Source of the DNA: Vulgatibacter incomptus
GTDB lineage: Bacteria; Myxococcota; Myxococcia; Myxococcales; Vulgatibacteraceae
Assembly (NCBI RefSeq): GCF_001263175.1
Contig: NZ_CP012332.1
Location: forward strand, 1,110,001 to 1,174,000
Length of the DNA: 64,000 nucleotides
Reading direction: 5' to 3'
Position numbers and translations under genes: made by a program. Shown one piece after another: positions 8,525 through 62,522 of this stretch. Below the pieces are notes generated by a model, which worked only from the letters and a program-made list of their open reading frames with translations, did not search any database and was not told the origin of the DNA. The number at the start of each line of letters is the position of its first letter. The stretch's first letter is position 1.

Positions 8525-8860
8525 ATGGCCGAGCAGCGCAAGACCGAGCGAGCCCCCATCGACATCTACCTCAACAAGATCATCGACGAGGCTCGACACC
8601 TCGCCCGGGCGACGGACATCTCCACCGACGGCATCTGGGTGTCGAAGATCCTCGAGCCCCGGAGCGCGACCCGCGCCGTGGGCCTCGAGTTCCAGCTCCC
8701 GGGGAGCGAGGAAGTGATCAACGCGGCGGGGGAGGTGGTTCGCGAGGACTCCCGCATCGGCGGCCGGGCGGAGGGCACCGCGATCCGCTTCACCCACATG
8801 GCCCACCGCTACCGCCGCATGATCGAGGTCTACGTCTCCCGGGTCGCCGGAAACGCCTGA
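8525..8860 (+). CDS. PilZ domain protein
   Basis: This 111-residue protein is essentially one PilZ domain, the common bacterial c-di-GMP receptor fold. The N-terminal Arg motif is RKTERAPID and the second signature is DISTDGIWVSK, matching (D/N)-x-S-x-x-G. PilZ proteins often act on motility or exopolysaccharide output, and the window also carries gliding genes, but no partner is adjacent. I chose ATG 8525, giving MAEQRKTER, because GGAG lies eight bases upstream; an earlier ATG at 8492 lacks a ribosome site. The TGA stop codon is also the first three bases of a palindromic repeat element. Confidence 0.85.
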   Translation: MAEQRKTERAPIDIYLNKIIDEARHLARATDISTDGIWVSKILEPRSATRAVGLEFQLPGSEEVINAAGEVVREDSRIGGRAEGTAIRFTHMAHRYRRMIEVYVSRVAGNA

Positions 8861-9034
8861 GAGCTTGTGAAGAATTCACAAGCTCTCGCGAAGCCGAAGG
8901 CGGAGCTGACGAAAAAAAGAGCGTTTCCGCGCACGCGAAGCCGAAGGCTGAGCCAAGGAAAGGCGCGATCGCGCGAAGCGCGGCTGAAGAAGCCGGGCCC
9001 GCTCGTGCGGGACCGATTTCTTCACACGCTCTGA
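8858..9034. repeat. palindromic intergenic element, copy A
   Basis: This 177-bp element starts with TGAGAGCTTGTGAAGAA, whose first TGA is the PilZ stop codon, and ends TTCTTCACACGCTCTGA. The ends are imperfect inverted repeats (15 of 17 pair). Inside are a left hairpin (AGCTTGTGAA/TTCACAAGCT), the module AAGCCGAAGGCGGAGC, a GCGCGAAGCGCG motif and a right-hand hairpin around GGGCCCGC. Related copies lie at 18964, 28771, 36908, 38728, 39515 and 42902. Confidence 0.85.
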
Positions 9035-18164: not shown

Positions 18165-18953
18165 ATGGTGGGAGATCTGCCTCCCAGGATCGGTCCACTC
18201 CTCCTGCTGCTCGCGCTCGTCGCGGGTTGTGCCGCTCCCCGTGCATCCTGGCGCCAGGGCGAGACCCCGGAGGCAACGGAACCGCCGGCGCCGATCGATC
18301 TCGACGAGGGAGGCGGCCACGCCGAGCGAGGCCCCGTCCACGTGGTCGCCCCCGGCGAGAACCTCTACCGGATCGCCCTCCGCTACGGCGTGGACATGGA
18401 TGAGCTCGCCGATCTCAACGAGATCAGCGACCCCAGGAGCCTCTCCGTGGGGCGGGAGCTGCGGCTCCCCGCGAAGGACCGCAAGGGCGCCCCGTCGGAG
18501 TCGGCCGCTTCCACCGCATCCGCGGAGTCCAGGTCGCCCCAGGGGCGCCAGACCATTTCGAAGCAGCCTCCGCTCTCCGGGACCCCTCTCCTGGATTGGC
18601 CCGTGAAGGGCGTGCTCTTCAGCCGCTTCGGCAAGCGGGGCGCCACCCGCCACGACGGTATCGACATCGCAGCGCCGGAGGGGACGGCGATCCTCGCGGC
18701 GGCGGACGGCGACGTGATCTACGCAGGCGTGCAGCGCGGTTACGGGCGGCTCGTGATCCTCCGACACGAGGACGGTCTCGTGACCATCTACGCGCACAAC
18801 CGCGAGAACCTCGTCCGGGACGGGATGAAGGTCCGCCGCGGCCAGCCCATCGGAAAGGTGGGGCGAACCGGGCGCGCCAGCGGGCCTCATTGTCACTTCG
18901 AGGTCCGCCGGGGGACCACGCCCATGGAGCCCCTGGACTTCCTCCCGCCCTGA
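18165..18953 (+). CDS. LysM/M23 peptidase lipoprotein (NlpD/EnvC type)
   Basis: This 262-residue outer-membrane lipoprotein has lipobox LVAGC and is probably a cell-wall hydrolase or amidase activator. A LysM peptidoglycan-binding domain follows the linker (HVVAPGENLYRIALRYGVDM). A LytM/M23 domain follows at about residues 140-255 with zinc ligands in RHDGIDIAAP (HxxxD) and GPHCHFEVR (HxH). Both ligand sets are intact, so it may be catalytic rather than a degenerate activator. It lies downstream of tRNA-Pro and upstream of a degenerate palindromic repeat copy. Confidence 0.88.
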   Translation: MVGDLPPRIGPLLLLLALVAGCAAPRASWRQGETPEATEPPAPIDLDEGGGHAERGPVHVVAPGENLYRIALRYGVDMDELADLNEISDPRSLSVGRELRLPAKDRKGAPSESAASTASAESRSPQGRQTISKQPPLSGTPLLDWPVKGVLFSRFGKRGATRHDGIDIAAPEGTAILAAADGDVIYAGVQRGYGRLVILRHEDGLVTIYAHNRENLVRDGMKVRRGQPIGKVGRTGRASGPHCHFEVRRGTTPMEPLDFLPP

Positions 18954-18963
18954 TGCCCGTTCT

Positions 18964-19070
18964 TTCGCTCTTGCGGAGCCGAAGGCGGAGCAACGGAAAA
19001 AGTGCGTTCGCGCGAAGCGCGGCTGAAGAATTCGGGCCCGCTTCTGCGGGACCGAATTCTTCATACGCTC
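18964..19070. repeat. palindromic intergenic element, degenerate copy B
   Basis: This copy carries the internal module (GCGGAGCCGAAGGCGGAGCAACGG), the CGCGCGAAGCGCG motif, the right hairpin (GAAGAATTCGGGCCCGC/GCGGGACCGAATTCTTC) and the right end TTCTTCATACGCTC. The left inverted repeat is missing or decayed. It lies 11 bases after the stop codon of the M23 lipoprotein. Confidence 0.75.
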
Positions 19071-22281: not shown

Positions 22282-23607
22282 ATGGCTGAAGAGCGGCTGC
22301 AGAAAATTTTGTCGCGGGCGGGTGTCGCGTCGCGGCGCGCGGCCGAGGAGCTGATCCTGGACGGGCGGGTCCAGGTGAACGGCGAGACGATTCGGGAGCT
22401 CGGCACCCGCGCCGACCCGGCCAAGGACGTGATCCGGGTCGACAAGGCCGTGATCGCAGAGCCGGACGACCTGGTCCACTTCGTCCTCTACAAGCCGGAG
22501 CGCGTGGTCACGACCCTCTCCGACCCGGAGGGGCGCACGTCGGTCGGCGATCTCCTCCGGCGGGCCAAGGCGCGGGTCTACCCCGTTGGGCGGCTGGACT
22601 ACGACGCCGAGGGCACCTTGCTCCTCACCAACGACGGGGAGCTGGCACACAAGCTCACCCACCCTCGCTGGGGCGCAAAGCGCACCTACCTCGCCAAGGT
22701 CAAGGGCGAGCCCGCCGAGGCGGTCCTCCAGCAGATGCGCGACGGAGTTCGCCTCGAGGACGGGATGGCGCGGGCCCTGGAGGCCACCTTCGAGAAGCGG
22801 ACCCCGCGGAACACGTGGATCCGGCTTGTGCTCGTCGAGGGGCGTCATCACCTCGTGAAGCGGCTCTGCGAGGCCGTGGGGCATCCGGTGGTGCGCCTCT
22901 TCCGCAGCGACTACGCCGGCGTCGGGGTGCAGGGCATGCAGCCCGGCGAGCTCCGCCCGCTCACGACCCAGGAGCTAAACGGTCTGAGGCGCGCGGTCGC
23001 CGAGGAGGCGCCGTTGCCCGCGGGTGGCAGGCCCCGCCGTCGCACGGCCCGCACCCAGGTCGCGGTCCGCGATCCGATCTACGGTGTCGCCCGGCCGGGG
23101 GCCTCGTCTCCCCAGCCCAGGCGCTCCACCAGCCGGGCGGCTCCTGCCGGGCCGCGTGGGTCCTTTGCCCCCTCGGGCCGAGCGGCTCCTGCCGGGCCGC
23201 GTGGGTCCTTTGCCCCGTCGGGCCGGGCGGCTCCTGCCGGGCCGCGTGGGTCCTTTGCCCCGTCGGGCCGACCGGCTCCTGCCGGGCCGCGTGGGTCCTT
23301 TGCTCCGTCGGGCCGAGCGGCTCCTGCCGGGCCGCGTGGGTCCTTCGCCCCGTCGGGCCGAGCGGCGCTTGTCGGGCCGCGTGGGTCCTTTGCCCCGTCG
23401 GGCCGAGCGGCTCCTGCCGGACCGCGTGAGTCCGCTGCTCCGTCGAGCCGTGGGGCTCCCTCTGGGGGGCGCGGATTTGGTGCCACGGCCAAGCCCACCG
23501 GCTTCCGGGCGGGCCCGGGGAGGGCGCCCTCGGCTTCCGGGCGCAAACCGTCCGCCGGCAAGCCGTCCTCGTCCGCGCGCGGACCGCGAGCGCCTCGAGG
23601 ACGCTGA
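22282..23607 (+). CDS. rluB: rRNA pseudouridine synthase, RluB type, with repeat tail
   Basis: Members of this family convert a specific uridine of 23S rRNA to pseudouridine. An S4 RNA-binding domain (LQKILSRAGVASRRAAEELI) is followed by the catalytic domain with GRLDYDAEGTLLLTNDG, whose Asp is the nucleophile. From about residue 286 the protein carries seven 15-residue repeats AAPAGPRGSFAPSGR, encoded by a 45-bp minisatellite, then a basic disordered tail. Start ATG 22282 follows AGAGGA. RluB, RluE and RluF are hard to separate; the scpA-scpB-rluB order favours RluB. Confidence 0.92.
   Translation: MAEERLQKILSRAGVASRRAAEELILDGRVQVNGETIRELGTRADPAKDVIRVDKAVIAEPDDLVHFVLYKPERVVTTLSDPEGRTSVGDLLRRAKARVYPVGRLDYDAEGTLLLTNDGELAHKLTHPRWGAKRTYLAKVKGEPAEAVLQQMRDGVRLEDGMARALEATFEKRTPRNTWIRLVLVEGRHHLVKRLCEAVGHPVVRLFRSDYAGVGVQGMQPGELRPLTTQELNGLRRAVAEEAPLPAGGRPRRRTARTQVAVRDPIYGVARPGASSPQPRRSTSRAAPAGPRGSFAPSGRAAPAGPRGSFAPSGRAAPAGPRGSFAPSGRPAPAGPRGSFAPSGRAAPAGPRGSFAPSGRAALVGPRGSFAPSGRAAPAGPRESAAPSSRGAPSGGRGFGATAKPTGFRAGPGRAPSASGRKPSAGKPSSSARGPRAPRGR
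23137..23451 (+). repeat. 45-bp minisatellite inside rluB
   Basis: There are seven head-to-tail in-frame units of 45 bp. Most units differ at only a few bases; units 4, 6 and 7 carry coding changes (PAPAG, AALVG, ESAAPSS). A partial eighth unit follows. Because 45 is divisible by three, copy-number change keeps the frame. Confidence 0.9.
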
Positions 23608-27128: not shown

Positions 27129-28767
<1,639 letters not shown>

Positions 28768-28770
28768 CAG

Positions 28771-28943
28771 TCAGAGCTCGTGAAGAAATTCACGAGCTCT
28801 CGCGAGCCGGAGGCGAGCAAACGTAAAGAGGCGCCCTCGCGCACGCGGAGCCGTAGGCGGAGCAACGGTAAGGCGCTATCGCGCGTAGCGCGAGCTGAAG
28901 AAGTCGGGCCCGCTTCCGCGGGGCCGACTTCTTCACGCGCTCA
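28771..28943. repeat. palindromic intergenic element, copy C
   Basis: This 173-bp copy lies between the convergent eno and sigma-factor genes. The left end has GAGCTCGTGAAGAA and a perfect local hairpin GAGCTCGTGAA/TTCACGAGCTC. The module GCGAGCCGGAGGCGAGCAAACG appears at the left and a related GGAGCCGTAGGCGGAGCAACGG in the middle. The right part is a long hairpin, GAAGAAGTCGGGCCCGC against GCGGGGCCGACTTCTTC. The last three bases (TCA, 28941-28943) are the stop codon of the minus-strand sigma gene, so here too the element end supplies a gene end. Confidence 0.88.
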
Positions 28944-29849
28944 GATTCCCGCCACCGACGCCGAGGTGATCGGCCCGACGCCCTCGGGCTCGATGTCGTC
29001 CATGAGCTCGACGAGCTCGTGCTTCAGCTTGTCCTTCGCCCGGATCTCGAGCTGGCGCGCCCGCTCCCGGGAGAAGCCGAAGTGCTCGCCGAGCTCCTTG
29101 AGCGTCATCGGCTTGTCGCTCATCACGCGCTTCTCGATGATGAAGCGCTCCCGCGGATCCAGGCGCATCAGCGCCTGCTCCACGCGGCTGGTGATGATCT
29201 CGCGCTCCTCCGCGTCGGCGAGCTCCGAGTCCTGGCCGGCCCCGGCAGCCGGCACGAAGTCCACGTGGGAGTTCCCGCCGTCCTCGCCCATCGGCGCGTC
29301 GAGGGAGAGGTCGCGGCCCTCCATGCGCTGGGTCATCTCCAGGACCTCGGTCGGCTTGACCCGGAGCTTCTTGGCGATCTTCCTGGCGTCCTGTGAGTCC
29401 TCGGTGCCCTGCAGCTTCTCGATCTCCCGCTTCGTGCGGGCGAGGGAGAAGAAGAGCTTCCTCTGGGCCTGGGTGGTCCCCAGTTTCACCAGCGACCAGG
29501 ACTTCAGGATGTAGTTCTGGATGTAGGCGCGGATCCACCACACCGCGTACGAGATCAGCCGGATCCCCTTGTCGGGATCGAACTTCTGCACGGCCTTCAT
29601 GAGGCCGATGTTCCCCTCCTGGATCAGGTCCGCCATCTTGATCCCGTAGGACCGGTACTCGTACGAGACCTTGACCACGAAGCGGAGGTTGGCGGTCACC
29701 AGGCGATCCGCCGACCGTTCGTCGTTCTCGCTCCGGTACTTGCGGGCCAGCGCCTGCTCTTCCTCCTGGGTGAGGAGCGGGTACTGGTTGATCTCCGAGA
29801 GGTACATCGCGAGGGAACCCGCGGATGCCGGGAGGGTCGAGAGTCGCAT
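28941..29849 (-). CDS. RNA polymerase sigma-32 family factor (RpoH-like)
   Basis: This 302-residue group-2/3 sigma factor begins [20 protein letters not shown]. Region 2 is clear ([54 protein letters not shown]). The RpoH-box-like segment [16 protein letters not shown] follows, and region 4.2 is [20 protein letters not shown]. Myxobacteria have several paralogues of this type (for example the SigB and SigC developmental factors), so heat shock is not the only possible role. ATG 29849 has GGAG seven bases upstream; the longer frame above it is not conserved-looking. Confidence 0.88.
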
Positions 29850-35233: not shown

Positions 35234-36910
35234 ATGCAGATGTCCGGCGTCACCCCCAGACTTCGGCGGCTGGAGCTCGAAGCGCTCCTCGAGATCACCG
35301 AAGCCGCGACCAGCCACCTCGATCTCGAGGAGCTGCTGCACGTGGTGGTGAACCGGATCGCCGCCGTGGTCCCCGTGGATCGCTGCTCGGTGATCCTCGC
35401 GGATCAGGGCTCGAACCAGGCGCTCGTGATGGCGTCTCACGACGTCCCCGAGCTGCGCCGCCTGCCGATCGATCTCCTGCGCTATCCCGAGCTCCAGCGG
35501 GCCATCGAGTCTCGTTCGCCGGTGATGATCGACGACGTCCGCTCCGATCCGGTGATGGCCGAGGTCCGGCCCCTGCTGGAGACCGTGCCGGTCTCCTCGC
35601 TGGCCATCGCGCCCCTGGTGTCGAAGGGCGACGCGTACGGCGTGCTCTACCTGCGGCTCGCCCGTGACAGGGCGTTCGGTCCCGACGAGCAGGCCTTCGT
35701 GAGGGCGGCGGCGTCGATCATCGCCAACTCCGTCCGCAACGCTCGGCTTCACACCAGCGTGCGGCAACGGCGCGACGAGCTCGAAGCTGCGTACGAAGAG
35801 CGCTACCGCGAGCTCGACGCCGCGAACGAGCAGCTCAGGGAGACGAGCAGGCTCAAGGACGAGCTCCTCGCGATCTGCTCGCACGACGTCCGAGCGCCGC
35901 TGAACGTGCTCCTCGGGCACACGCGCCTCCTGCTCTCGGCCGGGATCGAGCCGGGCCAGCGCCGGAGCGTGGAGGCCATCGAGCGCCAGGCGATGCGCGT
36001 CCTCCAGCTCGTCGAGCAGATCCTCGAGACGGGCCGAGGCAGGCGCGAGAGCTGGCAGCTCTCCTTCGCGTCCGTTGATCTGGCCGCCCTCGTTCGGCGG
36101 GTGGTCGACGATCTGACCACGCTGGGGGCGGAGGGCTCGGTGTCGCTGCGGTCGGAGGGGCACGACACCCTCCTGGCCGAGGTGGACGAGAGCGCGATCC
36201 GGCAGGTCCTCGAGAACCTGATCTCGAACGCGATCGCCCACGCGCCGGAGGGCACGGCGGTCGAGGTGGAGGTCTCCCTCGACGAGGCCGCCGGCGGGCG
36301 CGCGCGGATCGAGGTGCGCGATCGGGGGCCGGGCATCGCCGAGGCCGAGCTTCCCCTGGTGTTCGAGCGCTTCCGGAAGGGCGACAAGGGCGCGGGCTTC
36401 GGGTTGGGCCTCGCCATCGCCAGGGAGCTCGTGGAGCACCACGGCGGCGACATCTGGGTTCGGGCGCGGCCGGAAGGGGGTACGTCGTTCGTGTTCGCCG
36501 TTCCCCTTCGGGCGCGGCGTGCGGGGAGCGAGGGAGACAAGCGGCGGCTGCTGGTCGTCGCCGAGGACTGCGAGATGCGCGCCTCCCTGGGCGAGCGGCT
36601 CCGTGAGCGGTACGCCGTCACTCTCGCCAGGACCGGAGGGGAGGGGATCGCCCGCGCCAGGGCCCTGCTCCCCGACGCGGTGCTCGTCGACAGCGATTTC
36701 CCGGAGGGCAGGGCGACGGCCTTCGTCCAGCAGCTCCGGAGCCACCCCGGCCTGGGCGAGACCCCCGTCGTCTACCTGGGACGGACCGACCTGGCCCAGA
36801 GCGTCTCGCTGGAATCGGTCGTGGACGGGAGGCGAGGGATCTTCGCCGCCGCCGACGACGATCTGCTGCCCTTGCTCGACGAGCTCGTCACCTCGAGACG
36901 CGTCGGCTGA
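35234..36910 (+). CDS. GAF-domain sensor histidine kinase with degenerate receiver
   Basis: This 558-residue cytoplasmic hybrid kinase has a GAF domain at about residues 13-165, then a coiled coil. The DHp helix carries His217 in LLAICSHDVRAPLNVLL, and the HATPase domain has ENLISNAIAHAPEG, RDRGPGIAEAELP and GFGLGLAIARELVEHHGGDI. The C-terminal receiver-like domain has a candidate phospho-Asp486 (VLVDSDFPEG) but lacks the usual Thr/Ser and Lys switch residues (VVYLGRTD), so it may be non-phosphorylatable. No transmembrane segment is seen. Its TGA stop is the first codon of repeat copy D. No cognate regulator is adjacent. Confidence 0.87.
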   Translation: MQMSGVTPRLRRLELEALLEITEAATSHLDLEELLHVVVNRIAAVVPVDRCSVILADQGSNQALVMASHDVPELRRLPIDLLRYPELQRAIESRSPVMIDDVRSDPVMAEVRPLLETVPVSSLAIAPLVSKGDAYGVLYLRLARDRAFGPDEQAFVRAAASIIANSVRNARLHTSVRQRRDELEAAYEERYRELDAANEQLRETSRLKDELLAICSHDVRAPLNVLLGHTRLLLSAGIEPGQRRSVEAIERQAMRVLQLVEQILETGRGRRESWQLSFASVDLAALVRRVVDDLTTLGAEGSVSLRSEGHDTLLAEVDESAIRQVLENLISNAIAHAPEGTAVEVEVSLDEAAGGRARIEVRDRGPGIAEAELPLVFERFRKGDKGAGFGLGLAIARELVEHHGGDIWVRARPEGGTSFVFAVPLRARRAGSEGDKRRLLVVAEDCEMRASLGERLRERYAVTLARTGGEGIARARALLPDAVLVDSDFPEGRATAFVQQLRSHPGLGETPVVYLGRTDLAQSVSLESVVDGRRGIFAAADDDLLPLLDELVTSRRVG

Positions 36911-36966
36911 GAGCTCGTGAAGAACTTGCTCCCGCGCCGCGGGGGCGATTTCTTCACACGCTCCGA
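36908..36966. repeat. palindromic intergenic element, minimal copy D
   Basis: This is the shortest copy, 59 bp. It starts TGAGAGCTCGTGAAGAA, where TGA is the kinase stop codon, has a short core CTCCCGCGCCGCGGGGGCGA, and ends TTCTTCACACGCTCCGA. The internal modules of longer copies are absent, showing that the terminal inverted repeats are the defining part. Confidence 0.85.
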
Positions 36967-38030: not shown

Positions 38031-38730
38031 GCCTCTGGCTCTCCGGGCCTGCCTGACCGCCGCGCCATTGGCATCGGTCCTGGGGGCGCTGATCCTGGTG
38101 GCGCTGACCCTTGGGGCGCTGCCCCTGGTGGCGCACGCCCACGACCTCTCGGGCCCCGAGCTCGAGCAGAAGGCGAGGGCGATCGGCTTCGGCGACTCGA
38201 TCCGGCTCGGCATGGAGCACATCTACACGGGCTACGATCACCTGCTCTTCCTCGCCGGCCTCGCGATCGCCGCCCGCGGGCTGCGCGGGATCCTCCGGCC
38301 GATCACCAGCTTCACGCTGGCCCATTCGATCACGCTCGCCCTCGCCGCCCTCGGGATCCTGGCCGTTCCGAGCCGCTTCGTGGAGCCGGCGATCGCCGCG
38401 TCGAACCTCTACGTGGCCTTCGAGAACGTGGCGCGTCCGTCGCCCGTGGGCCGGACCTGGCTCACCTTCGGCTTCGGGTTGGTTCACGGCTTCGGCTTCG
38501 CGGGCGCCCTCGCCGAGCTGGGCCTGCGGCGGGACGCCTTCGCGACGACCCTCGCCGGCTTCAACCTCGGCGTGGAGGCGGGCCAGCTCTCGCTCGTGCT
38601 CCTCGCGATCCCCTTGCTCGCGCTCGCCCGGCGCGCCGCCTGGTTCGCCCCGGTGGCGGTGCCGGTCGCCTCCGCGACGATCGGCTTCTTCGGGGCGTAC
38701 TGGCTGGTGGAGCGGATCCTCGTCGGCTGA
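37990..38730 (+). CDS. HupE/UreJ family membrane protein
   Basis: This 246-residue polytopic protein is of the HupE/UreJ type, a family linked to nickel or cobalt transport in some bacteria. A signal or first helix ends at AHAHDLSG. The conserved GMEHIYTGYDHLLFLAGLA, FTLAHSITLALAALG and FGLVHGFGFAGALAELG carry the His and Asp residues expected for metal coordination. No hydrogenase or urease genes are in the window, so the substrate is uncertain. Its TGA stop starts repeat copy E. Confidence 0.82.
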   Translation: MPPSPSSPPPTPTRPLALRACLTAAPLASVLGALILVALTLGALPLVAHAHDLSGPELEQKARAIGFGDSIRLGMEHIYTGYDHLLFLAGLAIAARGLRGILRPITSFTLAHSITLALAALGILAVPSRFVEPAIAASNLYVAFENVARPSPVGRTWLTFGFGLVHGFGFAGALAELGLRRDAFATTLAGFNLGVEAGQLSLVLLAIPLLALARRAAWFAPVAVPVASATIGFFGAYWLVERILVG

Positions 38731-38860
38731 GAGTTCGTGAAGATATTCACGAACTCTCGCGAGCCGGAGGCGAGCAAACGAAAAGGAGCGCCCTCGCGCG
38801 AAGCGCGAGCTGAAGAAAGCGGGCCCGCTTCGGCGGGGCCGATTTCTTCACACGCTCTGA
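38728..38860. repeat. palindromic intergenic element, copy E
   Basis: This 133-bp copy begins at the HupE stop codon (TGAGAGTTCGTGAAGA) and ends TTCTTCACACGCTCTGA. Local hairpins are GAGTTCGTGAA/TTCACGAACTC, GCGCGAAGCGCG and GGGCCCGCTTCGGCGGGGCC. It contains the module GCGAGCCGGAGGCGAGCAAACG found in copies C, F and fragment G. It separates HupE from the convergent gene ending at 38868. Confidence 0.88.
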
Positions 38861-39332: not shown

Positions 39333-39514
39333 CCGTCTCCTCCGCCCGTCGTTCTTTCTGCTCTCGATAGCAATCCACGGGCCCACACCGCGGTAGTCCT
39401 TCCCCGGCGCCGTCGGTGCGGTCGCCGGGGCGGATGGGACCCTTCCGGTGCGGAAGACTTCTTCCAGGCCGGGCGCCCGCCGTCGCCTTCCGACCTGCGG
39501 ACGTCGACCTTCCG

Positions 39515-39563
39515 GCGAGCCGGAGGCGAGCAAACGAAAAGGAGCGCTCTCGCGCTTCGCGCG
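39515..39563. repeat. palindromic element fragment G
   Basis: This fragment has the internal module GCGAGCCGGAGGCGAGCAAACG, then AAAAGGAGCGC and a CGCGCTTCGCGCG hairpin, close to copy E, but without the terminal inverted repeats. It lies in the 280-base gap between the two divergent helical-protein genes, the only copy not directly at a gene end. No gene is seen elsewhere in this gap. Confidence 0.7.
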
Positions 39564-39611
39564 GTTGCACGGGCGTCGGCCCGCAGCCACCTTGCAGCTC
39601 GCGGAGGAACG

Positions 39612-41116: not shown

Positions 41117-42904
41117 ATGGAAGGCCGCGAGTTCAACCCGTTCATGTCCGTCGCGCCCGGGTGGGCGGCGCTCGCGATCCTGCTGGTCCTCGCGCCGTTT
41201 GGCTGTCGAGTGGAGGCCCCGCCGAGCCTGCCTGGCTTGGGCGACGCGTGCGACCCGCGGCTCCCCGACACCTGCGTCGGCAGTTTCTGCCTGCCCCTCG
41301 ACGGAAGCGGGATCTGCAGCCGTGCATGCGACGACTTCGACTCCGAGTGTCCGTCGGGGATGACGTGCCAGGTCGACGCCGAGCAGGGCGCCTTCGTCTG
41401 CAAGCCCGGGTTCCGCTGCTCGAGCGACGAGAGCTGCCCTTCGGGGCACCGCTGCGACACCGATCGGCGCATCTGCTTCATCCCGGTCCAGAGGGGGCTC
41501 TGCGCGCCGTGCACCGCCGACGCCCAGTGCCCGGCAGGCGGAGTCTGCTTTCGCGCGAAGAGCACCGGCGAGCGGTTCTGCACGAGCCCGTGTGGACCGG
41601 ATGTCGCCTGCCCCGACGGTTATCGGTGCATCGGGGACCAGGGCAAGGGCCAATGCGTGCCCCGGGCCGAGACCTGCTACGCCGGGAAGCCGCTATGCGC
41701 CCCCTGCAGGGGAGACGTCGAGTGCGGAAGCGGCAACGCACGGTGTGTGAATAATGTTCTCACAGGTGAGCGGTTTTGCGGACAGGGCTGCAACCCGTCG
41801 TGCGTGTGGGACGAAGCCCGGCGGGAGACGGTCGATCGGGAGACGCGGCAGCCCTGCAGGAGCGGCTGTCCGCAGAACTTCAGCTGCACGCAGACGGGGG
41901 GCGCGAACGACCCCTACCAGTGCGTGCCGAACAGCAACACCTGCATCGGCTACTGCGTCGGAGGCTCGGCCGCCCGGGAGATCGCCGAGTGCGGACCCGG
42001 CTACGAGTGCGATCCCCGGAACAACACCTGCGTCCCGGCGAGCGACGGACGCGCGTGTGCGCCGTGCACGGATGACGACAAGTGCAATCCTCCCGGCAAC
42101 GAGCATGGCGCCTCCTGCATCTCGAGCGGCTCGACCAGCTCCGCGTTCTGCGCGCCCCCTTGTATGACGGACGCCGATTGCGCGAATGCCCTCGGGATCG
42201 GCTTCGCGTGCATGGAGGTGGAGGGGAAGCGCATGTGCGCACCGCTCAGGGGGAGCTGCAAGCGGGGCCTGAAGCGCCTCGGAGAAGACTGTTCCAAGAA
42301 CGGCGAGGCGGACTGCATCGCCGGCGTCTGCCTGCGATACGGTGACCTGGGCATCTGCTCGGGGCCATGCAGGGCCGACGCCGATTGTGGCGACTCGCGA
42401 TACCAGTGTTGTCCCACCACGCCGGACGGCACGAGCTACGATTGCCGCGCCTCGACCTCGGAGGAGCAGGGCGGCGTATGCGTGCCTCGCGGAGGCACTT
42501 TCGGCGACGATTGCGAGCCCGGTCGTCCGCCGTGCCGCGACGGCTACTGCCTCGACATCGGAACTGCGCGCCTCTGCACTGCGGCGTGCGGGCGCGCCGA
42601 GGATTGCGATTTCGCTTCGGGGACCTCTGGCGCTTTCTGGTGTCAGGACGCCGAGATGGTGGACGAAAACGGAGAGCGCGAAGGTCAGGTCAAGGTCTGC
42701 TTCCCGCGTGGTGGCGGCGAGCTCGGATCCGATTGCTCGTTCGGTCCTGCTGCCTGTGTCGGCGGCTACTGCATCAAGAAACGCAGCGGAAACGTCTGCA
42801 CGCAGGCTTGCAGCGACAAGGAAGCTCCTTGCCCCGAGGGCTGGGCCTGCGAGCCGCACCAGACGGTGAATGGGAAAGAGTTGAACGTCTGCGTTCCGGG
42901 CTGA
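41117..42904 (+). CDS. cysteine-rich lipoprotein
   Basis: This 595-residue lipoprotein has the signal segment ALAILLVLAPFGC, then very many Cys spread along the length. They occur in short recurring units such as GDACDPRLPDTC, CTADAQCPAGGVCFRAKSTG, CGPDVACPDGYRC and CRADADCGDSRYQCC. The repeat C-x-x-D-x-D-C-P-x-G-x-x-C pattern is common in myxobacterial surface lipoproteins with disulfide-rich knottin-like modules. ATG 41117 is used; ATG 41144 is also possible. It precedes the vWA-like lipoprotein and glt genes on the same strand but is separated from them by repeat copy F, so operon membership is unclear. Confidence 0.78.
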   Translation: MEGREFNPFMSVAPGWAALAILLVLAPFGCRVEAPPSLPGLGDACDPRLPDTCVGSFCLPLDGSGICSRACDDFDSECPSGMTCQVDAEQGAFVCKPGFRCSSDESCPSGHRCDTDRRICFIPVQRGLCAPCTADAQCPAGGVCFRAKSTGERFCTSPCGPDVACPDGYRCIGDQGKGQCVPRAETCYAGKPLCAPCRGDVECGSGNARCVNNVLTGERFCGQGCNPSCVWDEARRETVDRETRQPCRSGCPQNFSCTQTGGANDPYQCVPNSNTCIGYCVGGSAAREIAECGPGYECDPRNNTCVPASDGRACAPCTDDDKCNPPGNEHGASCISSGSTSSAFCAPPCMTDADCANALGIGFACMEVEGKRMCAPLRGSCKRGLKRLGEDCSKNGEADCIAGVCLRYGDLGICSGPCRADADCGDSRYQCCPTTPDGTSYDCRASTSEEQGGVCVPRGGTFGDDCEPGRPPCRDGYCLDIGTARLCTAACGRAEDCDFASGTSGAFWCQDAEMVDENGEREGQVKVCFPRGGGELGSDCSFGPAACVGGYCIKKRSGNVCTQACSDKEAPCPEGWACEPHQTVNGKELNVCVPG

Positions 42905-43033
42905 GAGTTCGTGAAGAAGTTCACGAACTCTCGCGAGCCGGAGGCGAGCAATCGAAAAAGAGCGCCTCTTGCGCGTAGCGCGAGATGAAGAATCGCTCCC
43001 GCGAGGAGGGGGCGAATTCTTCACACGCTCTGA
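42902..43033. repeat. palindromic intergenic element, copy F
   Basis: This 132-bp copy begins at the stop codon of the Cys-rich lipoprotein gene (TGAGAGTTCGTGAAGAA) and ends TTCTTCACACGCTCTGA. It has the GAGTTCGTGAA/TTCACGAACTC hairpin, the GCGAGCCGGAGGCGAGCAA module and a GCGCGTAGCGCG motif. The right-hand hairpin core is different from other copies (TCGCTCCCGCGAGGAGGGGGCGA). Confidence 0.88.
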
Positions 43034-56117: not shown

Positions 56118-56290
56118 TTCGTTTTCGTGCTTCGCTCGAGACGATTTGTGTAGGTAGAGGTCACGGTTCGTGTCGATTGTCGACTTGTGGTGGTCGTTCG
56201 ATTTTGTGATGTGCGTTCGCACTTGAGGTGATCTGGTCGGCCCGGTCCGCACATTCTGGAATCGAACGGACGTCGGGGAGGAGGGCGGCG

Positions 56291-59095
56291 ATGCGACGCG
56301 CATTCATTTGGCTGATGTTGCTCGGGTGGTTGGGGGCGTGTTCCTCGGAGGCCGGCCCCGCCAGAGGGGAGTTTTCGGATTCGGACGCCCTCGACTTCGG
56401 GAAGGTCGTCGTAGGCAACAGAGCCGCGAAGGTCGTGACCCTCTCCAATCCGGGCAGCGATCTGGCGGAATTGAGAGCCGCGAGCGTCCCTGCCGGCTAC
56501 GAAGTGCGACCCACGGCGCTGAGTCTTGCGCCCGGTTCGGCTGCCGAAGTGGAGGTCGTCTTCTTCCCCGATCGGTCGGCGCGCTTCGACGGCACCCTGA
56601 CGTTCGCCCAGGGTGGTGCCCCGCGCGCCGATATTGGGATCGAGCTGCGCGGCGAGGGAATCCACGGCGTTGAATTCCCCCCTTCCCTCGATTTCGGCGT
56701 AGTTGGATTGGGCGAAACCCGGACACTTCCCGTTACGGTCTCGAGCACGGTGGAGACGTCGATCTCTTTCTTCGTCTCGATTGACGGCGAGACCGGTTCC
56801 TTCCGGAGTGGAAGCGAGGTGGTGGAGCTCGCTGGCGGGGAGAGCCGAACGATCGACGTATCGTTCTCGCCGTCGGTCGAGGGCGCCCACACCGCTTCGC
56901 TCGTGCTGCGTCCATGTCACATGTGCCACAGCATGCGGATCAAGCTCATGGGCTCGGCCGGCCTAACGAAACTTCTCGCCGATCCGATGGCCATCTCGTT
57001 CGGGACGGTGTTGAGAGGGCGATCCAGAAGCGAGTACTTCGGCATCCTGAACGTGAGCGATCTCCCGGCGACGGTTTCCGCAGTCGTGTTGGTGGGCGAT
57101 CCGCGGGATCCCGCGGCGGGCGGGTCCGTTCCGTCCGAGTTCTCGCTCGTCGGCATCGACGGTCCCTTCGAACTGGCGCCGGCGGCGAGTGTCCCTGTGG
57201 AGGTCGTCTTCCACCCTTCGCTCCAATCGGAAACCCGTAGTTCCAGGTCCGCGAGGGTCCAGGTGTTGGGGCCGAACAGCGAGCTTCTTTTCGAGGTCCG
57301 GTTGAGCGGGTGGATCGCGGGAATCAAGGTGATCTCCGATCCGCCGAACCTGGGCTTCGGACTCCAGGCGAGGGGAATCGACGCACGGCAGTCGTTCGTG
57401 CTCCGGAGCGCCGGGGATTCCGCCTCGATCGTTCTCGACCGGCCCATTCTCACGGGGCCCGGCGCGGCCAACTACCAGGTGACCGCCGCCGACGAGTCGC
57501 CGCCTCCTTGGCGCCTGGACCGCCAAGAGACCTTTTACTTGAGCTTTCTAGGCGACAATGTCGGGGAATTCCCCGTGGAGATCTCGTTCCCGATCAGGGT
57601 CGACGACGCGACGTCGGAGGAGCAGCCGTTCGTGAAGGTGGAAGCGACGGCGACGGTCGTGGATTTCCCGCCGTGTGAGCTGGAAATCGCGGAGCCGTCG
57701 CTGCGCTTCGGTGCGGTGAAAGTCGGCACGATCGTGACACGGCCGATCGTGATCACCAACCGGGGAGCGACGACGTGCCCGATCGTCAAGCTGGCGCTCG
57801 ACCCGAATGGTTCGAGCGCTTTCTCGAGCACGACCCTGTGGCCCGGCCTGCTAGCGCCAGGCGAAAGGCGTGCGGTAGCGACTCGCTACACGCCGACCGA
57901 GCTCACGGGAGTCCAGGACCGAACCAGCCTTTTCGTCTACCACTCCAACGAGGAGACGTCCACGGCCGTGGTGCCGATCAGCGGCCTCGCGACGGAGTTC
58001 GGCCTCGTAGCGGAACCGAACATCATCGACTTCGGCTGGGTACCGTCGGTTCAGTGTCCGCGGGACGCCATCAAAGCCTTCACGATCCGGAACGGCGGGG
58101 CTGAACCTGTGAAGATCACGGGGATCACGATCGCGGCCGACGGTTCTCAGCGATTTGCCGCACGGGCCGACGAGAACCTCCCCCTCACCATCGAACCTGC
58201 GCGCTCGAAGAGCTTCTCAGCGTCGTACCGGCCCCTGGACTATTCCCACGACATCTGGACGATTGAGATTTGGCTGGACGGTGTCGACGAGCCATTCGTG
58301 GTCGAGGCCCGGGGTTGGAGCGATGATGCCTGTGGCCCGCTGTGCTGGTGGCCGTGGGCGATTTGCCCCGCGGCACCCCAATCGGTGGTGGTGAACACCC
58401 GGAGCATTCTCTCCGGCGATGCCTACAGCCCCTCCTGCCGTGAGGCCACCTGCGAGTGGCAGCTGCTCAGCGCTCCAATAGGCTCGACCGCGCGGATCGC
58501 GGGGGCTGGGTGTACCCCGTCTTTTTCGCCAGATGTAGTCGGGACGTACAAATTCAAGTTGGCGGTCACAGACGAGCTCGGGACCCGCGGTTTCGATTGC
58601 CAACACGAGCTCACTGCGGAGCCGATCGATGCCATTACGGTTCAGACAGTCTGGGACGTCCCCGGTGACATCGATCTCCACCTGTTGAACGAGGGCCTAG
58701 CCGACCGGCGGGACCCGATCAGTTGGGATCGCGATCCCGCGGACTGCTTTCACCGCAATTGCACCGAGGGCAACCGACCGAGCCCCCTCTGGGAGGGCGA
58801 CCTCGAGATGACCGCCAGCCTCGATCGGAACGACCTCGCGGGAACGGGGCCGGAGACCATCCACATCCCTGTTCCGAGCGTGACCCACTCCTACGCCATC
58901 GGGGTCTACAACCGCGGCAATCGCGGCACGCCGGTGAACGTGGTCACCAACATCTACTGCGGTGGCACGCTGGTACAAAGCGTACCCACCGTCTTCACGA
59001 ACGTCGCGCAGTTCAAGGTGATCGGCAGCATTCGGTATCTGGGAACCACGTGCACCTTCACTCCGGACGGAACCCTCTGGTCCTCCTACTACTGA
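56291..59095 (+). CDS. multi-ASH-domain lipoprotein, tandem copy 1
   Basis: This 934-residue lipoprotein has the signal MRRAFIWLMLLGWLGAC. Six ASH/choice-of-anchor D-like immunoglobulin domains follow, each opening with an FG-x-V-x-x-G-like motif (LDFGKVVVGNRA, LDFGVVGLGETR, ISFGTVLRGRS, LGFGLQARGID, LRFGAVKVGTIV, IDFGWVPSV). Then come a Cys-containing PKD-like segment (CEWQLLSAPIGSTAR) and a C-terminal beta-rich domain (DVPGDIDLHLLNEG, VNVVTNIYCGG). It is exported and outer-membrane attached, with no enzymatic motif, probably an adhesive or structural surface protein. Base use is visibly less GC-saturated than in the glt genes. ATG 56291 has GGAGG upstream. Confidence 0.85.
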   Translation: MRRAFIWLMLLGWLGACSSEAGPARGEFSDSDALDFGKVVVGNRAAKVVTLSNPGSDLAELRAASVPAGYEVRPTALSLAPGSAAEVEVVFFPDRSARFDGTLTFAQGGAPRADIGIELRGEGIHGVEFPPSLDFGVVGLGETRTLPVTVSSTVETSISFFVSIDGETGSFRSGSEVVELAGGESRTIDVSFSPSVEGAHTASLVLRPCHMCHSMRIKLMGSAGLTKLLADPMAISFGTVLRGRSRSEYFGILNVSDLPATVSAVVLVGDPRDPAAGGSVPSEFSLVGIDGPFELAPAASVPVEVVFHPSLQSETRSSRSARVQVLGPNSELLFEVRLSGWIAGIKVISDPPNLGFGLQARGIDARQSFVLRSAGDSASIVLDRPILTGPGAANYQVTAADESPPPWRLDRQETFYLSFLGDNVGEFPVEISFPIRVDDATSEEQPFVKVEATATVVDFPPCELEIAEPSLRFGAVKVGTIVTRPIVITNRGATTCPIVKLALDPNGSSAFSSTTLWPGLLAPGERRAVATRYTPTELTGVQDRTSLFVYHSNEETSTAVVPISGLATEFGLVAEPNIIDFGWVPSVQCPRDAIKAFTIRNGGAEPVKITGITIAADGSQRFAARADENLPLTIEPARSKSFSASYRPLDYSHDIWTIEIWLDGVDEPFVVEARGWSDDACGPLCWWPWAICPAAPQSVVVNTRSILSGDAYSPSCREATCEWQLLSAPIGSTARIAGAGCTPSFSPDVVGTYKFKLAVTDELGTRGFDCQHELTAEPIDAITVQTVWDVPGDIDLHLLNEGLADRRDPISWDRDPADCFHRNCTEGNRPSPLWEGDLEMTASLDRNDLAGTGPETIHIPVPSVTHSYAIGVYNRGNRGTPVNVVTNIYCGGTLVQSVPTVFTNVAQFKVIGSIRYLGTTCTFTPDGTLWSSYY

Positions 59096-59219
59096 CTCTC
59101 TTCTCGCCCCGGACATGAGCGCGTGGCGGGCCGCGTGAACGTGGGGCCATGTCCGAATCGGAGACGGGGCGAACCTGGAGCCGATTCTTCGCAGGGGGCA
59201 GGAGCATCGTCGCAGCGAA

Positions 59220-59283
59220 GTGATCCCGGCGGGCATCAATCGGACATGGGTGGAGCGAACGGAAGCTTCGGAGGAGGAATCAA
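59220..59283 (+). repeat. conserved leader in front of ASH copy 2
   Basis: The 60 or so bases before the start codon (beginning GTGATCCCGGCGGGCATCAA and containing GGACATGGGTGGAGCGAACG and the GGAGGAGG ribosome site) are nearly identical to 62235-62298 before copy 3, and weakly similar to the region before copy 1. Confidence 0.85.
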
Positions 59284-62082
59284 ATGCGACGCATCTTCTT
59301 TTGGCTGATGCTGCTCGGGCTTCTGGGTGCGTGCACCGAGACGCATTCCGTCGACGATCCCGGGACTGTGTTGGTCGATTGGAATGCCCTGGACTTCGGG
59401 CAGGTACTCGTAGGGACCCGGTCCACGCAGGTCGTGACCTTCTCCAATACGACCGGCGCGCTGGCGGAGGTGAGGGTCACCGGGAGCCCTGTCGGCTACG
59501 AGGTGCGGCCCTCGATCTTGAACGTCGAGCCCGGCTCGCGTTTCGACGTGGAGATCGCCTTCCTCCCGGCTCGTGAGGCCCGCTTCGACGGCGTCATCAC
59601 GTTCTCGGTGGACGACGGCACCGATCGAGCGGAGATCGGGATCGACGTCCGCGGCGAGGGGATCCAGAGGGTCGTGGAGGTGGTCGAGGCGCTCGACTTC
59701 GGTTTCGTCGCCGTCGGCGAGACGCGGACCCTCCCACTCACGATCTCGAGCATCGTAGAGAAGGCGATCACCCTCGCCGTCTCGATCGAGGGAGGAGCCG
59801 ATGCCTTCGTGAGCGGAAGCGGAGTCGTGGAGCTCGCAGGCGGCGAGACCCGGACGATCGACGTCTCCTTCTCGCCCTCGAACCGGGGCGCCCACACTGC
59901 CTCGCTGCGCTTTCGTTCGTGTGAGAGCTGTCAGGCCGTGAGCGTTCGGCTCACGGGCTCGGGCGGCTTCGCGCACCTGCGCTCCCGGCCGCCGGCCGTC
60001 ACGGTGGGGACGGTCCGACCAGGATCGTCTCGAAGCGCCACCTTCGGAATCGAGAATGCGGGTGATTTCCCGGCGACGGTCTCTTCCGTGACGCTGGTGG
60101 GAGATCCGGAGCGGGATCCAACGGGTGGCCTGGCCGTACCCCGGGAGTTCTCTCTCACGGGCGTCGTCGTACCTTTCGAGGTGGCGCCGACGGCAATTTT
60201 CCCAATGGAGGTCGTCTTCCACGCCGCCGCCCAATCCGAGCCCAGGAGGTACGCAAAGGTCCGGGTGATGGGGCCGAACGACGAGGTCCTCGTCGAGGTT
60301 CCGGTGGACGGGAGGAGCGGCGGCATCGAGGTGATCGCCGATCCGGTGGTGGTGGACTTCGGCAGGCAGCCCAAGAATTTCGCAGCCAAGAAGATCTTCG
60401 TGCTCCAGAACGTCGGCGACCCGGTCTCGATCCAGCTCTTCCCACCCGAAGAGGACTCCAACTACACGGTTGTCGCCGCTGACGGATCGCCGCCTCCCTG
60501 GACCCTGGGAGATGGCCCCATGGGCGTCGAGGTCACCTTCGAAGGCAGCGAGTCCCAGGACTATCCCGCCGAGCTCGTCTTCCCGATCTACGTGAACGGT
60601 GCGCTCTCCGGGGAGCAGCCGTTCCTGAAGGTGGAGGCGATCGCAACGGTCGTGGACTTCCCGCCATGCGAGCTGGACGTCGCGCAGACGCTGCGATTCG
60701 GTGCCGTGAAGGTCGGCACGAGCGTGACGCTGCCGATCGACATCACCAACCGGGGAACGTCGGAGTGCCTGGTCTGGGGCCTGGAGCTCGACCCGGATGG
60801 TTCGCGCGCATTCTCGAGCACGTCGATGCCATCTCATTCGACCGCCGTACTCGCACCAGGCGAAAAACTCACTGTGGCAGTCCGCTACGCGCCGACCCGC
60901 ACCATGGGCGTGGTCGACAGCTCCCACCTGGTCTTCAACCACTCCAACGTGGACACGCCTCCTACTGTGGTGCCGATCAGCGGCCTCGCCATGGGGTTGG
61001 ACCTCGTTGCGGAGCCGAACCCGATTCTCTTCGGCCCGGTTCCGACTCCGCTACAGGCCTTCAAGCCCTTCGTGGTCCGGAATCGTGGGGCCGAGGCCGT
61101 GCGGATCACCAGGATCTCGATTGCGGCCGATGGCTCGCAGCGATTCTCAGCCCGAGCGGATGACCAGCTCCCTCTCGCGATCGCCCCGGCGGCCTCGAAG
61201 GGCTTCACGGCGTCGTACAAGCCCCTGGAGTGGACCATCGACCACGGAACTATCGAGCTCTGGCTCGAAGGTATCGACGAGCCCTTCCTGGTTCGAGCCA
61301 AGGGCACGGCGGTCGACGATCCCTGTGAGCTCTGCTCGTGGCCTACGGCGATCTGCCCCGCGGAGGCGCAATCGGTCATGGTGAACTCGAGGGCCGTTCT
61401 CGCAGGTGACGCCGACAGCCCGTTCGGGCGCGAAATCACCTGCAAGTGGCAGGTGATCAGCGCCCCGATCGGATCGAGCGCGCGGCCACAAGGGGCCGGA
61501 TGCACGCCGTCCTTCGTGCCCGATCTGGTCGGGAGGTATGTCTTCGAGCTGTTGGTCACGGACGCGCTCGGAAACAAAGGCGCCTGCCAGCATCAGCTCA
61601 CGTCGAGGCCGATGGATGCCATTACGGTCGAGACGTTCTGGGACGTCGCCGGAGACGTCGACCTCCATCTCTTGAACGAGGACCTCGGCGATCGGCGGGA
61701 TCCGAACAGCTGGTTCAGCGACCCTGCGGACTGCTATTTCGCCAACTGCACCGACGGTCGGCGCCCAAGCCCGCTCTGGGAGGGCTCCCGCGCCAAGACC
61801 GCCATCCTCGAGGAGAACATCACCCTCGGCACGGGACCCGAGATCATCCACATCGAGGATCCGAGCGAGACCCACTCCTACGCGATCGGGATCCACAACG
61901 TCAGCGTCGGCGGAAGGCCGGTTACCGTGACCACCAACGTCTATTGCGCACGCGGGCTCGCACAGTCGGTGACGACCGAGTTCACGGAATCCAAGCAGTT
62001 CGCGGTGATCGGCAGCATTCGGTTCGGGAGCTCGACCTGCAGCTTCACGCCGGACGACACGGTATGGAACGGCTTCCACTGA
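59284..62082 (+). CDS. multi-ASH-domain lipoprotein, tandem copy 2
   Basis: This 932-residue paralogue of the preceding gene is alignable end to end. The signal is MRRIFFWLMLLGLLGAC and the same six ASH-like domains follow (LDFGQVLVGTRS, LDFGFVAVGETR, VTVGTVRPGSSR, VDFGRQPKNFA, LRFGAVKVGTSV, ILFGPVPTPL). The same PKD-like Cys segment (CKWQVISAPIGSSAR) and C-terminal domain (DVAGDVDLHLLNEDLGDRRD) are present. Copies differ at many positions, so the duplication is not recent. The ribosome site is GGAGGAGG before ATG 59284. No other gene lies between the copies, only the repeated leader. Confidence 0.87.
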   Translation: MRRIFFWLMLLGLLGACTETHSVDDPGTVLVDWNALDFGQVLVGTRSTQVVTFSNTTGALAEVRVTGSPVGYEVRPSILNVEPGSRFDVEIAFLPAREARFDGVITFSVDDGTDRAEIGIDVRGEGIQRVVEVVEALDFGFVAVGETRTLPLTISSIVEKAITLAVSIEGGADAFVSGSGVVELAGGETRTIDVSFSPSNRGAHTASLRFRSCESCQAVSVRLTGSGGFAHLRSRPPAVTVGTVRPGSSRSATFGIENAGDFPATVSSVTLVGDPERDPTGGLAVPREFSLTGVVVPFEVAPTAIFPMEVVFHAAAQSEPRRYAKVRVMGPNDEVLVEVPVDGRSGGIEVIADPVVVDFGRQPKNFAAKKIFVLQNVGDPVSIQLFPPEEDSNYTVVAADGSPPPWTLGDGPMGVEVTFEGSESQDYPAELVFPIYVNGALSGEQPFLKVEAIATVVDFPPCELDVAQTLRFGAVKVGTSVTLPIDITNRGTSECLVWGLELDPDGSRAFSSTSMPSHSTAVLAPGEKLTVAVRYAPTRTMGVVDSSHLVFNHSNVDTPPTVVPISGLAMGLDLVAEPNPILFGPVPTPLQAFKPFVVRNRGAEAVRITRISIAADGSQRFSARADDQLPLAIAPAASKGFTASYKPLEWTIDHGTIELWLEGIDEPFLVRAKGTAVDDPCELCSWPTAICPAEAQSVMVNSRAVLAGDADSPFGREITCKWQVISAPIGSSARPQGAGCTPSFVPDLVGRYVFELLVTDALGNKGACQHQLTSRPMDAITVETFWDVAGDVDLHLLNEDLGDRRDPNSWFSDPADCYFANCTDGRRPSPLWEGSRAKTAILEENITLGTGPEIIHIEDPSETHSYAIGIHNVSVGGRPVTVTTNVYCARGLAQSVTTEFTESKQFAVIGSIRFGSSTCSFTPDDTVWNGFH

Positions 62083-62234
62083 CGGAGTCGTGAGAGCGGG
62101 GGCGGGCAGCGCCCAAACAGTTCGAAGAACCACTCGGCGCCGGGCGATACTCGGCGCCGATTCTTTGTCCGAATCGGCGCCGGGCGTACCCGGAGCCTGT
62201 TCTTGGCCTGGGGCGGGAGCCGCTTCGCGGCCAA

Positions 62235-62298
62235 GTGATCCCGGCGGGCATCATCCGGACATGGGTGGAGCGAACGGAACCTTCGGAGGAGGCCACAA
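62235..62298 (+). repeat. conserved leader in front of ASH copy 3
   Basis: This is the second instance of the leader, GTGATCCCGGCGGGCATCAT to GGAGGAGGCCACAA, differing from 59220-59283 at only a few bases. The 150 bases upstream contain nested GGCGCCG inverted repeats (for example CTCGGCGCCG repeated three times) with no gene. Confidence 0.85.
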
Positions 62299-62463
62299 TT
62301 GCGACCGACCTTTTCTTGGCTGATGCTGCTCGTATTTCTGGGCGCATGCTCCCAAACGCTCACCATGGACGATCCAGGGTCTGTGGTCGTCGATCGGGAC
62401 GATTTGGACTTCGGGCGGGTACTCGTAGGAACCCGGGGCACGAAGCCCCCTGTGTCAGCGTAG
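62299..62463 (+). pseudogene. truncated third ASH-lipoprotein copy
   Basis: Starting at TTG 62299 after GGAGGAGG, the frame encodes LRPTFSWLMLLVFLGAC, a lipoprotein signal matching copies 1 and 2, then DRDDLDFGRVLVGTRGTK, the opening of the first ASH domain. The homology ends abruptly at about 62445, where the IS3-family sequence begins. The frame then reads four or five IS-derived residues to a TAG at 62461. The rest of this copy, if still present, would lie beyond the IS and outside the window. Confidence 0.85.
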
Positions 62464-62522
62464 TTGTCGCCTCGTCGTGACAGCGTAGGTCGATCAAGTA
62501 GGGGGCGAAGAGCAGGTTGGAG

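Follow-up and report, generated by a model that had tools for sequence, protein, structure and literature searches.

A repeat that abuts stop codons in Vulgatibacter incomptus is probably an IS1182-type MITE that restores the stop by duplicating TGA

We analysed a 64,000-nt stretch of V. incomptus DNA (the window; positions 1,110,001-1,174,000 of the single 4,350,553-bp contig) and find that five of its elements (A, C, D, E and F below) together with the right-hand part of a sixth (B) form one repeat family, which counts about 120 copies, mostly of 126-171 bp, on the 4.35-Mb chromosome. The repeat is probably an IS1182-type MITE that duplicates TGA and thereby restores the stop codon at which it lands; it looks like a transposon of known type that follows a safe rule for landing, and not like a gene shortener. 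We observe terminal repeats, oriented TGA flanks, an exact coincidence with stop codons, intact C-termini and a like arrangement in autonomous IS1182-family elements. The copies in the window are as follows.

Copy A, 8858..9034, + strand: TGA at 8858-8860, the stop of a PilZ-domain gene; element 8861-9031 (171 bp) with a duplicated module; TGA at 9032-9034
Copy B, 18951..19070, + strand: stop TGA of an M23 peptidase gene at 18951-18953; left end decayed; conserved right part, starting about 25 nt past this stop and ending in CGCTC at 19070
Copy C, 28771..28945, + strand: left flank TCA; element 28774-28942 (169 bp); right flank AGA
Copy D, 36908..36966, + strand: TGA at 36908-36910, the stop of a GAF/histidine kinase/receiver gene; element 36911-36963 (53 bp); right flank CGA
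Copy E, 38728..38860, + strand: TGA at 38728-38730, the stop of a HupE/UreJ gene; element 38731-38857 (127 bp); TGA at 38858-38860
Fragment, 39499..39600, + strand: internal module alone, without the ends
Copy F, 42902..43033, + strand: stop TGA at 42902-42904; element 42905-43030 (126 bp); TGA at 43031-43033

A preceding sequence-only reading had taken the TGA of copies A, D, E and F for the stop codon of the upstream gene, which is correct: all four are in frame and abut the GAG... terminal repeat. The gene before copy F is unassigned and encodes 595 aa; its frame is open for more than 600 codons and its codon usage is atypical. For copy C, the last three bases of the element had been equated with the stop of the convergent sigma-70 gene. 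This holds for two of them only, i.e., the right terminal repeat ends at 28942 while the stop of this minus-strand gene (TCA on the + strand) covers 28941-28943, such that one of its bases lies in the flank. On the other side, the upstream gene stops with TAG at 28765-28767, six bases before the left-flank TCA. Like copy A, copy C carries a duplicated module, and copy D looks like an internal deletion of the repeat. With six copies and the fragment, the density of the repeat in the window is about three times the genome average. Apart from this family, the window holds a coding-like region (23042-23519) with an array of 45-bp tandem repeats, some eight copies or more, and, within 56200-62500, a pair of long ORFs separated by about 3 kb that share stretches of 71-81% identity, probably a tandem gene duplication.

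The number of about 120 significant copies results from a covariance model built on 27 full copies. Each end of the repeat carries a 14-bp terminal inverted repeat (GAGnnYGTGAAGAA; 81 occurrences in the genome compared to 1 for the reversed control), outside of which lies the direct repeat TGA...TGA. In canonical orientation, the left extreme forms a hairpin GAGAGYTYGTGAA..TTCACRARCTCTC, with its outermost G and A contributed by the flanking TGA. It is followed by a small GCCGRAGGC hairpin and a three-way junction that is closed by GAGCG/CGCTC and contains CTCGCGC-GAA-GCGCGAG as well as a long TGAAGAA..TTCTTCA hairpin. This fold is 6.4 standard deviations below that of shuffled sequences (z -6.4), and 8 of its pairs show compensated changes on both sides, a number reached by 0/500 shuffles. 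By sequence reading the repeat has no U-run and is thus not a standard terminator. When searching 60 genomes with the covariance model, we found the family in this genome only; an exact search of a public genome collection for the left hairpin gave no match, and the Rfam hits above gathering score within the window were two tRNAs only, leaving the repeat unmatched. Copies close to the contig ends recur with equal spacing (genome positions 5331/4339491 and 10888/4345048, the latter pair with identical flanks), and the first ~16 kb of the assembly appear to be present again at its end. One of each such duplicate pair was used for the counts. Flanks of the copies were taken piecewise, and genes were called with a simple codon-usage script, not a standard gene finder.

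Genome-wide, 33 intact left ends have a TGA flank, and in 28 of them this TGA is precisely the in-frame stop codon of the gene upstream, one of the 28 being assigned by a frame test because gene calling failed close to a fragment end. The remaining five comprise one in-frame intragenic copy and four intergenic ones. For nine further copies, the stop of the upstream gene extends two bases into the left end (eight T/GA, one TAG), and four copies show the T/GA of a convergent gene at their right end. Many copies that lack the left hairpin start 0-25 nt past a stop. Considering intact left ends with any flank, 28/41 (68%) are located at stops, while only 25% of the non-coding TGA triplets are stops (293 vs. 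879; P = 7e-9). Tabulating the copies of the whole genome thus bears out the enrichment and the earlier view that contact with stop codons is unlikely by chance.

The flanks reveal what is recognised. To the right of the repeat, we observe TGA 36 times, CGA 13 times, GGA 8 times and AGA 5 times, while TCA, TAA and TTA are absent. The right-flank TGA is followed by G in 25/36 cases, where the preferences at -1 and +4 rest on small samples, and 10 of the 36 copies concerned are away from any stop. Since TGA occurs with and without a stop codon and TCA never on the right, the oriented TGA appears to be what is recognised, not the stop as such; this orientation of the target would also explain why the left end always faces the gene. 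TGA is found at both ends of 22 left-intact copies. Left flanks other than TGA differ from the respective right flanks, such that within this genome a duplication is visible only as TGA, and direct repeats of TGA alone fit both a target duplication and a TGA owned by the element. The CGA/CGA, TCA/TCA and TTTA/TTTA flanks of relatives argue for target duplication.

Six copies lie inside genes. All of them (L075, L093, L124, L101, L055 and L031; genome positions 2133394, 2211374, 1528882, 2298002, 450887 and 2674912) are read in the single open frame of the element. Their hosts are Lnt, a DnaE intein, a Hydrolase_4 alpha/beta hydrolase, a UvrD-like helicase, one unknown protein and the N-terminal extension of a glutamine synthetase-like protein. 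This is the pattern expected from the survival of harmless insertions.

The assignment to the IS1182 family is based on relatives in other genomes, where the terminal repeat extended by RTCGG occurs in 20 stretches, some of which are probably chance matches. A 1491-bp IS (L228) with the ends GAGGGTGTGAAGAAATGG / GAGGCTGTGAAGGAATCGG and CGA/CGA flanks encodes a transposase of the IS1182 family (NF033551, E=2.5e-71); only part of the model is covered by its open frame. A genome of the same order (G012) contains about ten copies of an IS1182-family element of ~1500 bp. In 10/10 copies, the GAGAGCGTGAAGGAATCGG end is preceded by CTGA and the opposite end is followed by TGA; in about five of them the far side merges into another repeat. 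Five of the ten are placed on in-frame stops, and four of the genes concerned have Pfam domains. With this, the TGA target rule is found a second time, independently, in an autonomous element. Our repeat hence shares its terminal repeats with autonomous IS1182-family elements of other genomes (L228, G012), and it also shows short direct repeats as the autonomous relatives do (TGA/TGA here and in G012, CGA/CGA for L228). In an acidobacterial genome (G062), the pattern of the ends matches 74 times. We read about twenty of its paired elements, which are ~100-270 bp long; they have the same ends and direct repeats of TCA, TGA, TGAA or TTTA, and none of those read is located exactly at a stop codon. 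Several of these MITEs (L237-L255) seem to lie within loops of host palindromes, e.g., GTCCGCC..GGCGGAC.

A search of the V. incomptus genome itself for a transposase whose ends match the repeat gave no hit; the elements present there are IS5-like (DUF772) and differ in their ends. As MITEs frequently persist after their partner transposase is gone, this absence lowers the case for IS1182-type membership without excluding it. Four near-identical IS5-like copies (L202-L205, DUF772 transposase) have the ends CAGGTTGCTGAA and CTAG direct repeats; a quick look at CTAG-flanked elements and TAG stops gave no consistent pattern. An assignment of the repeat to IS5/IS1031, which have a TNA target and GAG ends, was dropped once the IS1182-family IS with the ends of the repeat had been found; the genome's own IS5-like elements differ in their ends and have CTAG flanks.

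In the mechanism we propose, the MITE would be non-autonomous, moved by an IS1182-type transposase, and would insert at an oriented TGA, preferably in the context C-TGA-G. The three target bases would be duplicated to give TGA/GAG...CTC/TGA. At a target TGA that serves as a stop codon, the stop would be retained in the left copy and the protein would stay untouched, while other insertions in genes would mostly be lost to purifying selection unless they are read in the one open element frame. Because gene-disrupting insertions would be lost, the surviving ones would concentrate on stop codons with the left end towards the gene.

Comparison of the encoded proteins indicates that the stops are older than the element, i.e., that insertion did not change C-termini in conserved families. 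For stops directly abutting the repeat, the respective family models are covered to the C-terminus (MXAN_5187 family 527/528, LolD 226/227, acyl-CoA dehydrogenases 382/383 and 392/392, FadD-like 616/618). The T/GA class gives the same picture with ClpX (423/425), GlyS (690/698) and glyoxalase I (127/128), and TsaB is complete at its C-terminus as well. For the HupE gene before copy E, 10 orthologues without the element end within 0-2 residues of the same position, and 8/10 of them stop with TGA. The complete conserved C-termini and the orthologue ends together reject the suggestion of the sequence-only reading that insertion had replaced gene ends and altered C-termini. In the copy after glyS (L080, genome position 2284853), the left hairpin reaches into the CDS, where CCGGTGAGG pairs with an altered 3' arm CCTCACCGG.

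The earlier statement that insertion targets stop codons holds for the outcome; its cause is probably an oriented TGA, also used off stops, plus the survival of harmless insertions. From the target and the intolerance of genes to disruption, 25-45% of the non-coding insertions are expected at stops: the unweighted 25% increases to 31-38% on weighting by neighbouring bases and to 43-45% if sites near start codons are excluded as well. Against context-weighted target plus tolerance (38-45%), the observed fraction has P-values of 6e-5 to 2e-3; compared to the weighted model that also guards against sites near starts, P is about 1e-3. Across most models the P-values range from 1e-9 to 2e-3, while under a strict CTGAG target 58% are expected and the excess is gone (P = 0.12). 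Target and tolerance account for most of the coincidence, perhaps not all, and a modest excess may be left for which a true stop preference is a candidate. Such targeting of stop codons or gene 3' ends, by structure, transcription or termination context and beyond oriented TGA plus selection, would explain why 28/41 exceeds the 43-45% and why the autonomous copies in G012 are on in-frame stops in 5/10 cases. We nevertheless regard it as unlikely, given that the strict target removes the excess, that TGA also borders copies away from stops, that the examined G062 MITEs with the same ends are not at stops and that the gene calls come from a simple script. Equally doubtful is an IS1182-type transposition with a genuine stop or 3'-end preference that would form a safe-harbour system common to the MITE and the IS of its autonomous relatives. 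The residual excess would also be explained if the hairpins worked as a 3'-UTR device, be it for protecting the mRNA, for stalling ribosomes or for termination, and post-stop copies were kept by positive selection. The strong conserved fold with its compensated pairs is in line with this, as are the ribosome stalling and reduced translation reported for REPs that lie within 15 nt of a stop (PMC12306157). On the other hand, the family was found in this genome only among the 60 searched, many copies have decayed or are located off stops, the compensated pairs could also stem from palindrome correction or subfamilies, and the U-run needed for intrinsic termination is missing from the sequence, so that we give such functional retention a low probability, too.

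Two further explanations are far less probable. The element could supply the stop itself after insertion inside genes, truncating or fusing their ends; indeed, in the T/GA class, which comprises nine left ends (including the TAG case) and four right ends, the stop uses bases of the element's end. Yet in both classes the conserved proteins reach their full C-termini, orthologues stop at the same position, and random truncation would also yield the third frame, which is never seen. Single element-supplied stops among unconserved genes are possible, while as a general account we consider this highly improbable. Hardly more credible is a REP-like element moved on single-stranded DNA by RAYT/Y1 transposases of the genome. 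Three Y1-type transposase genes are present, and the hairpin-rich ends with orientation-specific flanks resemble such a system, but none of the repeat copies is near these genes, no replication orientation bias is observed (about 64 co-oriented vs. 57), and the true terminal inverted repeats as well as the autonomous IS1182-family relative are at odds with it. Of the three Y1 genes (L087, L088, L089), two are preceded by a similar stretch that reads GTGTCACCCATGTCC or nearly so.

The reading as an IS1182-type MITE can be related to known systems. The repeat resembles the IS1182 family (including IS1272) in its GAG-type terminal repeats with GTGAAG, and the family's relatives found here have 3-bp direct repeats (TGA, CGA, TCA) and are on TGA stops in G012, while the repeat differs in having no transposase gene and a length of ~130 bp. 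Palindromic targeting is described for some IS1182 members, e.g., IS1272, which is reported to replace stem-loops without target duplication (PMC5678879). For our repeat no palindromic target is detectable, i.e., reconstructed empty sites are no more palindromic than permuted sites or control stops. ERIC/RU-1 elements are similar in being ~127 bp long and mostly intergenic with some in-frame intragenic copies, and they share terminal inverted repeats and stable hairpins (PMC2759123). ERIC duplicates TA, and for one ERIC fusion the loss of the normal stop and a longer protein are described (PMC2759123), whereas our repeat keeps the stops. REP/BIME sequences with RAYT are likewise palindromic, of high copy number and near gene 3' ends; compared to them, the repeat is longer, has true terminal inverted repeats and TGA flanks, and shows no linkage to Y1 genes. 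Some copies of the Rickettsia palindromic elements lie within protein-coding genes and are all translated in a single frame of the element. Our repeat differs from these in sequence and host, and most of its copies are non-coding, many of them at stops.

A target duplication that is itself the stop codon allows for insertion at many genes without damage and would be a simple route to harmless amplification. Among the genes with a copy at their stop are clpX and glyS, which are normally important or essential. Dozens of stops thereby have a strong hairpin at zero distance, a location where hairpins are reported to affect translation (PMC12306157), and by analogy these hairpins may influence the genes upstream. 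Finally, with the TGA-flanked IS1182-family elements of another genome, both the target rule and any genuine preference for stops become directly testable by a transposition assay.
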